Positions 1-13,050 of a DNA stretch of 49,161 nucleotides are shown piece after piece. A program made the position numbers and the translations under genes. The stretch spans positions 1 through 49,161 of the forward strand of contig JAUIDY010000034.1 of assembly GCA_030428385.1 (NCBI GenBank), written 5' to 3'. Below the pieces are notes generated by a model that had not been told where the DNA came from, searched no databases, and worked only from the letters and a program-made list of their open reading frames with translations. The DNA is from Rhodothermia bacterium. Its GTDB lineage: Bacteria > Bacteroidota > Rhodothermia > Rhodothermales > JAAAOL01. Positions within the stretch are counted from its first letter, which is position 1. Each line of letters opens with the position of its first letter.

Positions 1-1398
1 GACGTGTTCGATAACGTTGGCTTCGGCCATGTTTTCAAAGCGGCAGTCGGTAAGGTGGATATCGGTGATCGGGGCGTGGGCGTAGCCGCGCAGGTACAGT
101 GCGTGCTGGCTTTTTTCGCAGGTCACATTCTGCACGTGGATGTGGCGGACGGTGGGCGTAAACGTTCCGGCATCGCCTTCCTCGTAGTAAAAGTTGACCC
201 GCACCACAGCGTCCGACACCTCGCCGACGGTGACGTTGCGCATGTAGACGTGCTCCACCACGCCGCCGCGCAGTGAGTTGGTCTTGATCCGCAGCGCCCG
301 CTCCAGGTTGGGGCTGTCCATCTGGCAGTTCTCGGCGAAGATGTGGTGTGCGCCGCCCGAGATCTCGCTGCCCATCACCACGCCGCCGTGACCGTCCTTC
401 ATCTCGCAGTTGCGCACGATGATGTTCGACGACGCCACCCCTACGCGCCGCCCGTCGGCGTTGCGACCCGACTTGATGGCGATGCAGTCGTCGCCCGTGT
501 CGAAGTAGCAGTCCTCGATTAGCACATCGGTGCAGGATTCGGGGTTACAGCCATCGTTGTTGGGGCCGTGTGTGTCCACGGTGATCCCGCGCACGGTCAC
601 GTTCTGGCACAGCACCGGGTGCACGTTCCACATCGGCGAGCGGTGGATGGTGATGCCTTCGATGAGGATGTTCTGGCAGCGGTACGGCTGGATGAAGTTG
701 GGCCTCAGGTGGTCGCCGTCGCCGAAGACGCGCTCCTCGACGGGCACACCTTGTTCCGCCATCTCGAAGAGCCGGTTGCGCGCTTCAGTCTGCGTCGGTC
801 CTTCGCTGGGGTCGCGGCCTTTCCACATCCACCAGTGCGTGTCGTCGGCCTGGCCGTCCAGCGTCCCGCTCCCCGTGATGGCGATGTTTTCTTGCTCGAA
901 GGCGTAGATCAGCGGCGAATAGTTCATCAACTCCATGCCTTCCCAGCGGCTGAACACGGCGGGCAGGTACGCGCTCGGGTTCTGGTCGAACAAGACAGTT
1001 GCCCCCTCGCTCACGTGCAGATTGACGTTCGACTTGAGGTGGATCGGTCCCGTCAAAAACGAGCCTGCCGGAACCACCACACGCCCGCCGCCTGCGGCCG
1101 TACAGGCTTCAACGGCCTGCTGAAACGCATCGGTGCAATCCGTTGTACCGTCCGCTACCGCGCCGTATTCCGTAATGTCGAAATCGGCATCGGGAAACGT
1201 CGGCGGCTGGATGCGGGCCAGTATTTCCGGCACGAGGTCCCAGCCCTCGGCGGCTTGTGCAGGAGGCGAAACGGGTGGGGGCGGGGTGGTTTCTTCTGTG
1301 CGACAACCGACGCTCAGAGTCGGCAAGAGAAACGCCAGCCCGGCTCCCGTGGCGGCATGCTTAAGGAAATCGCGGCGGGTGTGTTTGGGTTGTGTCAT
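1..1398 (-). CDS. Glycoside hydrolase family 28 polygalacturonase-like protein (3' end off window)
   Basis: Probable secreted pectinase hydrolysing alpha-1,4-galacturonan. 466 codons are open to the left edge, so the C-terminus is missing. The N-terminus has a twin-arginine motif (TRRDF, residues 7-11), a hydrophobic stretch and a lipobox-like Cys near residue 32, so export and lipid anchoring are likely. A right-handed beta-helix is inferred from the GH28 signatures, which I can place: NNDG with Asp282, the DD pair at 303-304 (GDDCIAIKSG), GHGG with His337, and RIK at 370-372. These are the known catalytic and substrate residues of the family. It lies downstream of kdgK on the same strand, fitting a role in feeding galacturonate to this locus. 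Substrate is inferred from family and context; exo versus endo mode cannot be told. The start codon overlaps the first unit of a hairpin repeat array. Confidence 0.9.
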   Translation of the reverse strand, partial: MTQPKHTRRDFLKHAATGAGLAFLLPTLSVGCRTEETTPPPPVSPPAQAAEGWDLVPEILARIQPPTFPDADFDITEYGAVADGTTDCTDAFQQAVEACTAAGGGRVVVPAGSFLTGPIHLKSNVNLHVSEGATVLFDQNPSAYLPAVFSRWEGMELMNYSPLIYAFEQENIAITGSGTLDGQADDTHWWMWKGRDPSEGPTQTEARNRLFEMAEQGVPVEERVFGDGDHLRPNFIQPYRCQNILIEGITIHRSPMWNVHPVLCQNVTVRGITVDTHGPNNDGCNPESCTDVLIEDCYFDTGDDCIAIKSGRNADGRRVGVASSNIIVRNCEMKDGHGGVVMGSEISGGAHHIFAENCQMDSPNLERALRIKTNSLRGGVVEHVYMRNVTVGEVSDAVVRVNFYYEEGDAGTFTPTVRHIHVQNVTCEKSQHALYLRGYAHAPITDIHLTDCRFENMAEANVIEHV

Positions 1399-1530
1399 TG
1401 GCTTTGCGTCATTGGCCCTGTGGGCGTCATGAATGGACGGCGTCCATGTCAGTTGCGAGCTTCGCTCGCGTCAATAGCAGGCTGCGCCTGTGTCAGTTGC
1501 GGACTGCGTCCGCGTCATTGGTTGTCATTC
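1394..1530 (+). repeat. Modular GTCA-hairpin array, locus 1 (seven units)
   Basis: Consecutive units with no gaps: 1394-1407 (stem 2), 1408-1425 (stem 4), 1426-1447, 1448-1469, 1470-1491, 1492-1513 (stem 6 each) and 1514-1523 (stem 0), then a trailing GTCATTC. Each unit is GTCA, three variable bases, a left arm, a three-base loop and the complementary right arm (for example GCGAGC, TTC, GCTCGC). The arms differ between units but stay complementary, except one G-T pair in 1470-1491. The first unit overlaps the start codon of the GH28 gene. Confidence 0.85.
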
Positions 1531-1540
1531 TAGCATCACG

Positions 1541-1590
1541 CTCCCATTCTCCCACGCTCCCATTCTCCCACACTCCCATTCCCACCCTCT
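1541..1590 (+). repeat. CTCCCATTCTCCCA low-complexity dispersed repeat
   Basis: Pyrimidine-rich tandem of CTCCCATT/CTCCCACG-type octamers in the gap between the GH28 gene and kdgK. Related stretches occur at 12901-12932, 14404-14438, 27021-27047 and 29273-29312, in either orientation, always at gene borders. Confidence 0.6.
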
Positions 1591-1593
1591 CAA

Positions 1594-6112: not shown

Positions 6113-6150
6113 GGCTGTCAGCTATCGGCTGTCAGCTTTTGGGAGTCAGC
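6113..6150 (+). repeat. GGCTGTCAGCTATCGG dispersed repeat, copy 1
   Basis: Internally repetitive sequence built from GGCTGTCAGC and GCTATCGG elements, upstream of lacI. Related copies are at 27106-27140 and 40745-40777, also at gene starts. Confidence 0.55.
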
Positions 6151-6209
6151 GCTGTTGATCATCATATTGCCCTGCCGGGCCATCATTCGAGTTAACAACA
6201 TTCGATGCC

Positions 6210-6285
6210 GATCAATGACGCGGACGCCGTCCGCAAGTGACGCACCAGCACGGTGCATATGACGTGGGCGTAGCCCACAAATCTA
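6210..6285 (-). repeat. Modular GTCA-hairpin array, locus 2
   Basis: Read on the minus strand: a unit at 6264-6285 whose first four bases are TAGA instead of GTCA (stem GTGGGC, loop TAC, stem GCCCAC), then 6242-6263 and 6220-6241 (both stem 6, 22 bases), then a stemless 10-base unit at 6210-6219. The altered first unit contains the TAG stop of dctM. The array fills much of the gap between dctM and lacI. Confidence 0.8.
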
Positions 6286-12900: not shown

Positions 12901-13047
12901 GTGGGAGAAAGGGAGAGATTGAGAACGGGAGAACCGGCGACACGGTGAATTGAAGATTCGATGCCTGAAATAAATGACTAAATGACGCGAAGCAAATGAC
13001 GCAGGCGCAGCCTGCCCATGACCTGCTGACCTGAAAGACCTGTGACC
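12901..13047. repeat. Repeat-filled gap before nuoD, with GTCA-hairpin array locus 3
   Basis: Begins with a purine-rich stretch (12901-12932) of the GGGAGAA family. On the minus strand are GTCA-hairpin units: 13001-13022 (stem GCAGGC, loop TGC, stem GCCTGC) and 12987-13000 (stem GC, loop TTC, stem GC), followed by two short stemless GTCATTTA-like units down to 12975. Between 13023 and 13047 are CAGGTC-rich copies (GGTCACAGGTC) resembling 48440-48476. nuoD starts at 13051. Confidence 0.75.
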
Positions 13048-13050
13048 TAA

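Follow-up and report, generated by a model that had tools for sequence, protein, structure and literature searches.

REPs are the best-known tetranucleotide-tagged palindromes, and the manner of their spread is still poorly understood. The small dispersed repeats of Nostoc, attributed to Elhai et al. in 2008, reportedly consist of 21-27 nt units with a conserved structure and compensatory changes, and are said to be tied to a short fixed target word and often nested. The arrays described here are alike in these respects; the Nostoc repeats differ in sequence and host and reportedly form no tagged head-to-tail hairpin chains.

The arrays lie in a 49,161-nt stretch of DNA from a Rhodothermia bacterium (the window, meaning the whole stretch that was analysed) and elsewhere in the same genome. 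With GTAG REPs, BIMEs and REPINs and their RAYT/TnpA-REP relatives (PMC2817692, PMC3116915, PMC8266576, PMC6006769) they have in common an unpaired conserved tetranucleotide at the foot of a short palindrome able to fold as ssDNA, 3-4 nt loops, an intergenic position mostly between co-directional or convergent genes, compensatory changes, species-specific stems and, as in BIMEs and REPINs, the pairing of inverted units across a short variable spacer. They differ in that the palindrome is preceded by GTCA (TGAC on the other strand) and not by GT[AG]G, the stems are 2-6 bp, many stem families are chained head to tail in one array, and no adjoining rayt gene was found, whereas copies of GTAG REPs flank their cognate rayt gene. 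CGTC-tagged REPs, including dRS3 and the rickettsial RPE-4/6 (PMC3733652), are likewise palindromes without a dedicated transposase that form inverted dimers, and the run YGTCAT at the tag is common to both. Their stems of 8-9 bp start with a paired AT, their loops are 4-5 nt and their head-to-tail dimers negligible (PMC3733652), whereas in the arrays the tag is followed by three unpaired bases, the stems are of 6 bp, the loops of 3 nt and the units are chained head to tail; the arrays so depart from CGTC REPs in tag, stem and loop alike. No TnpA encoded between subterminal hairpins, as in IS200/IS605 elements, was found. The short TAACTGA direct repeats of Beggiatoaceae (PMC4679880) resemble the arrays in lying immediately ahead of start codons and in occurring patchily in several phyla, Bacteroidetes among them, but are heptamers without hairpins. 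The arrays thus look like an undescribed relative of the tagged intergenic palindromes, REP-like in anatomy without the defining traits of GTAG or CGTC REPs. The evidence is evenly balanced, in our judgement, on whether they are a REP-like, DNA-level intergenic repeat whose ssDNA mini-hairpin units are added at TGAC, the likeliest agent being a Y1/HUH-type enzyme.

Hairpin arrays in the window

A unit consists of GTCA, three free bases, a stem arm, a 3-base loop and the complementary arm, and the window holds three arrays of such units (Table 1). The seven contiguous units reported in a preliminary description of this DNA were all recovered, at 1394-1527, and the related arrays that it had placed at 6210-6285 and 12975-13022 are of the same kind, with limits now set at 6216-6281 and 12975-13046. 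It had not recognised that the loops are GNA, that arrays form inverted pairs with a unique core between them, that a pyrimidine tract adjoins single arrays, or that start codons overlap tags. No part of the window matched Rfam 15 above the gathering score.

Table 1. Coordinates of the hairpin arrays and associated features in the 49,161-nt window.
Feature	Position	Strand	Content
Array 1	1394-1527	+ (GTCA orientation)	units of 14, 18, 22, 22, 22, 22 and 10 nt, then closing GTCA
Array 1, 14-nt unit	1394-1407
Array 1, 18-nt unit	1408-1425
Array 1, four 22-nt units	1426-1447, 1448-1469, 1470-1491, 1492-1513	+	stems ATGGAC/GTCCAT, GCGAGC/GCTCGC, GCAGGC/GCCTGT (one G-T), GCGGAC/GTCCGC
Array 1, 10-nt unit	1514-1523
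Array 1, closing GTCA	1524-1527
ATGAC in outermost tag of array 1	1394-1398	-	start codon of downstream minus-strand gene inside the tag
C/T-rich tract	1528-1593	+	CTCCCATTCTCCC-like; purine-rich on sense strand; array 1 on one side, end of upstream gene on the other
Array 2	6216-6281	-	units GTCACTTGCGGACGGCGTCCGC and GTCATATGCACCGTGCTGGTGC, plus outer GTGGGC-TAC-GCCCAC hairpin with tag lost
Degenerate inverted partner of array 2	~6155-6190
nuoC-nuoD spacer	12901-13050	+	150 bp: purine tract plus array 3
Array 3, in nuoC-nuoD spacer	12975-13046	-; TGAC on sense strand	one 22-nt unit GCAGGC-TGC-GCCTGC, one 14-nt unit GC-TTC-GC, shorter tag spacings

On the minus strand, which is the sense strand of both flanking genes, array 1 reads as TGAC-hairpin units, and the loops of its four 22-nt units (GGC, TTC, TGC and TGC) become GCC, GAA, GCA and GCA. 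The gene that starts in its outermost tag, called by us at 1-1398 on the minus strand, encodes a protein beginning MTQPKHTRRDFLK, a Tat-like leader. A C/T-rich tract like the one beside array 1 is the usual partner of single arrays. The tracts at 1528-1593 and 12901-12940, purine-rich on the sense strand, lie between upstream stop codons and single arrays, and the clustering of G on that strand makes them possible R-loop formers. Another spacer filler, GCTGTCAGCTATCGGCTGTCAGCTTTTGG, occupies 6116-6150 and occurs also beside arrays on contig C141 of the same genome and in the nuoC-nuoD spacer of a relative (G009, L226).

Tag specificity and unit sizes

We sampled 1.51 Mb of the 6.19 Mb genome in 35 stretches, picked in part for carrying pattern matches, and located 56 arrays at 45 sites; four sites inside genes, with short arrays, and the site on contig C203 look like chance. 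A count over 433 kb of this genome gave 24 occurrences of GTCA followed by three free bases and a perfect 6-bp stem with a 3-base loop; neighbouring combinations of spacer and loop gave 0-6 occurrences, and each of the other 255 tetranucleotides in place of GTCA gave at most 8. This combination of tag, spacer and loop is not chance. Hairpins with GTCA directly after them, counting G-T as a pair, numbered 24 with a 6-bp stem and 0 with stems of 3 or 7-15 bp. The exact pattern with its closing tag identified 35 units in the whole genome, where the pattern read backwards had 0 matches.

Tag-to-tag distances inside arrays of the 1.51 Mb sample were 22 nt (83 cases), 10 (26), 14 (12), 11 (11), 18 (10) and 15 (6), of which 18 and 22 were favoured by the requirement that array seeds have a 4- or 6-bp stem, and 10, 11, 14 and 15 were not; distances of 12 (1), 13 (0), 16 (1) and 19 (0) were rare. 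Units of 11, 15, 21 and 23 nt exist too. The preliminary description had expressed unit length as 10 + 2n. Its observation of a few discrete sizes is real, but the formula itself is trivial, since 4+3+n+3+n = 10+2n for any such hairpin. The 14- and 18-nt classes consist mostly of one hairpin type each, and the even stem lengths may therefore reflect few families.

Arm covariation and the folding strand

It had been suggested at the outset that structure rather than sequence is constrained, and a comparison of arm covariation with shuffled controls had been proposed; the comparison shows strong covariation and upholds the suggestion. In order to avoid circularity, 22-nt units were taken solely for another GTCA at module distance (n=77). 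Perfect stems of six Watson-Crick pairs were present in 43 of these 77, compared to a mean of 3.5 and a maximum of 11 in 2000 shufflings of arms among units. For the 70 distinct units of the covariation set (two of 72 were dropped as overlapping or unpaired), 92.4% of cells were paired vs. 61.4% after shuffling, 128 cells were changed on both sides vs. 33.7, and the covariation score was 0.794 vs. 0.217, collapsing when partners were slid by one column.

Read on the other strand, a unit is TGAC immediately followed by the first stem arm, then a GNA loop closed by C-G, the second arm and NNN. On the TGAC strand of this genome, whose loop counts alone are unbiased in that foreign loci came from patterns fixing some loop-side bases, the loop was GNA with a free middle base in 52 of 82 units and the loop-adjacent pair was C-G in 69 of 82. 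In DNA, a GNA loop is extraordinarily stable once two or more G-C pairs close it, and it contains a sheared G-A pair (PMC4686876), and the unit on the TGAC strand is a known stable DNA mini-hairpin. Such stability also renders the 14-nt unit, with its 2-bp stem, intelligible; RC-GNA-GY was present in 7 of 12 14-nt units in arrays vs. 3 of 25 outside them.

Mismatches on the TGAC strand comprised G.A/A.G (9, some of the G.A coming paired from one stem type), T.C (1), G.T (12) and A.C (13); with G.T and A.C equally frequent, nothing points to RNA wobble. In other carriers, tandem G.A/A.G at stem positions 3-4 is the rule, as in 17 of 22 units of Bacteroidales G464. GNA loops were found in 33 of 53 units with TGAC on the sense strand of transcription and in 9 of 14 with TGAC antisense, so that the constraint goes with the tag rather than with the message. 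The loop class and the mismatches thus agree with the origin at the DNA rather than the mRNA level that the preliminary description favoured. ViennaRNA DNA parameters, which to our knowledge hold no special terms for GNA mini-hairpin or tandem-GA motifs, gave little difference between strands and predicted neither the 14-nt unit nor the tandem-GA stem to be stable; they were not used to decide.

Inverted pairs and growth of chains

Arrays on opposite strands face each other at 13 sites around a core mostly of 33-45 nt (tags counted), and for 11 of the 13 the core sequence did not recur anywhere in the sample. In 10 of the 13 pairs the two hairpins nearest the core belong to different arm types (p=0.044), similar to the heterodimers described for REPs (PMC3733652), and the same arrangement is present in G001 and G426, two relatives from the order, and in a Marinilabiliaceae MAG. 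Neighbours within a chain are also unlike: 0 of 15 adjacent pairs of 22-nt units share arms, and their identity of 0.42 is lower than that of random pairs (0.51). Local tandem duplication would not be expected to give this result. Identical 22-mers recur at separate sites in four cases. Among 24 relatives the nuoC-nuoD spacer, 150 bp here, ranges from -4 to 72 bp, with 41 bp in the single genome of the same family, and none of the 24 has an array in this operon spacer. Taken together, the short spacers in relatives and the unlike units found elsewhere in the genome mark the arrays as lineage-specific additions, and this favours repeated insertion over local duplication, though it is not proof of transposition.

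In growth without an enzyme, GTCA microhomologies would give rise to replication slippage and template switching, with the hairpins as stabilising element, and chains would lengthen in spacers already rich in short tandem repeats. We consider this improbable. Low-complexity tracts do adjoin arrays (GA-rich tracts, 11-mers such as GTCATAAGGTG, GGAATTT tracts), near-identical 11-mer runs occur in Bacteroidales G464 and no cognate transposase is proven; however, such growth fits poorly with adjacent hairpins that are unlike, with the same units at distant sites, and with one tag and loop class in distant taxa. Runs of 11-mers, GTCATAAGGTG and GACATTAAGTG among them, lie beside hairpin units in Bacteroidales G464 and G512 (L194, L198) and are apparently hairpin-less versions of the same module.

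Gene context and orientation

Nearly all array sites are intergenic according to our own gene finder (1169 genes, 86% coding). Spacers between divergent genes are avoided, accounting for 1 of 40 classified sites as against 159 of 710 spacers of at least 80 bp (p=0.001). When an array has no inverted partner and its neighbours are co-directional, TGAC is on their sense strand in 16 of 17 cases (p=0.0003, tallied by eye), and the usual order on that strand is stop codon, purine-rich tract, array and start codon, the last often <80 nt away. Orientation relative to transcription had earlier been described as inconsistent; this does not hold for unpaired arrays, and two of the three arrays in the window conform. 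Of 23 downstream genes, 7 begin in the outermost tag, with ATGAC as their start, compared to 8.6% of ATG starts (p=0.002), with start codons chosen by the analyst in a way that could favour such overlap. Array pairs at L005 and L010 (contig C151) directly adjoin tRNA-like sequences, and such pairs are therefore not tied to protein-coding messages.

The orientation of single arrays, their proximity to start codons and the avoidance of divergent spacers would be expected of hairpins in 5' leaders and operon spacers selected to adjust how the downstream gene is transcribed or translated, or how stable its mRNA is. Such a regulatory role is nevertheless unlikely as the explanation of the arrays: inverted pairs place both orientations in one spacer, also beside tRNA-like sequences, GNA loops are equally frequent sense and antisense, G-U type mismatches do not exceed A-C, and the nuoC-nuoD array is missing from the same spacer in 24 relatives.

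Distribution in other bacteria

The preliminary description proposed a search of the genome and its relatives for chained units, and further arrays were found in both and beyond. Among 84,980 species genomes, a two-unit pattern matched a Bacteroidales MAG, a Marinilabiliaceae MAG, an Aminicenantes MAG (on one contig, so that a binning error is possible) and Frankia; the Frankia match (L075), a repeated 22-mer with weak pairing, was judged to be chance. Within the order, 5 of 114 genomes are carriers; outside it, carriers are 3 Bacteroidales, one Marinilabiliaceae and probably one Aminicenantes. Matches within the order numbered 35 in this genome, 5 in G426, 3 in G001, 3 in G022 and 1 in G006, the last pairing well. 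Single matches in four further genomes of the order pair poorly and were taken as chance, the remaining genomes having none. Single matches across the phylum, for example GTCATGAACGGCCACCGGCTGCGTCA, likewise pair poorly and were set down to chance or coding sequence. Around Bacteroidales G464, 3 of 119 genomes carry arrays.

A BLAST search with the array itself retrieved no relatives, as the stems are species-specific; it was the pattern searches that found them. Three patterns gave 0 matches in viral contigs, and a literature search on the foreign stem sequences and on such repeats in this group returned no description.

Candidate enzymes

A Y1 transposase is encoded in 34 of 113 genomes of the order, namely in 4 of the 5 carriers compared with 30 of the 108 other genomes (p=0.028 by hypergeometric test, with carriers not independent of one another). 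G022 has only a sub-threshold Y1 fragment, and the carrier G466 gave no confident Y1 match. The single Y1 gene found in the present genome (G000) is split, apparently by an in-frame 21-bp tandem repeat, its HUH half lying at the end of contig C141 (L064:13800-14313) and its YIHNNP half at the end of contig C203 (L046:1462-1754). Its motifs (NHVH, WQ, YIHNNP) belong to a RAYT-like gene that fits TnpA-Y1 subclass 2.4, whose REPs carry GT[AG]G. That the arrays are non-autonomous repeats of this subclass 2.4-like RAYT is very doubtful: the gene is present and Y1 is over-represented among carriers, but it carries and adjoins a different hairpin, GGGGCAACC...GGTTGCCCC, beside a GTAG-type tag, and no GTCA units.

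No Y1 gene was found beside arrays, the single Y1 match sitting at contig ends, and no 22-nt units lie around the Y1 loci of other carriers (L113-L130); the automatic HUH-motif search provided only two IS200-like genes with flanks to inspect. On either side of the IS200-like TnpA genes of G464 (L115, L126), other small hairpins with 3-nt loops are present in many copies (AGCTCC-GTA-GGAGCT, GGTGC-GCT-GCACC). A Y1-type enzyme is a candidate plausible in kind for the arrays.

A model for the spread of hairpin chains

Returning to REP-like insertion, the chains probably spread as folded single-stranded DNA, and we infer folding in vivo, stepwise insertion at TGAC and an enzyme. The TGAC strand would be exposed single-stranded, either as the lagging strand or as the strand displaced in transcription, and the exposed unit (TGAC, a stem of 2, 4 or 6 bp, a GNA loop and about three free bases) would fold into a very stable DNA mini-hairpin. 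A single-strand endonuclease or transposase may recognise this hairpin with the TGAC tag as guide. New units would join beside an existing TGAC, regenerating the site, so that chains of unlike hairpins could grow, starting at a first TGAC that may sometimes be the ATGAC of a start codon. The putative enzyme would most likely be of the Y1/HUH class (TnpA-REP, RAYT or IS200-like), possibly lost or acting in trans.

Against REP-like insertion stand the GTAG-type tag of the genome's own Y1 gene, the lack of units at the Y1 loci of other carriers and the absence of a confident Y1 match in G466. Selection for function in co-directional spacers would also yield the orientation bias and the covariation. 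A bolder form of the proposal, which we put forward as a tentative possibility, is that the units are among the smallest mobile DNAs, mini-hairpins of ~18 nt inserting singly at TGAC and regenerating the site, and thereby building up chains in the spacers of distant bacteria, through some single-strand DNA enzyme that recognises the TGAC foot and C(GNA)G.

The arrays bring a third tag with a structural rule of its own, namely a TGAC foot, a C(GNA)G loop and discrete stem sizes. Their chain architecture is unusual and is present in widely separated bacteria, and since the units of a chain can be told apart, the growth mechanism is readable from sister strains. Importantly, the TGAC/C(GNA)G rule is specific enough for an enzyme hunt by co-occurrence or pull-down.
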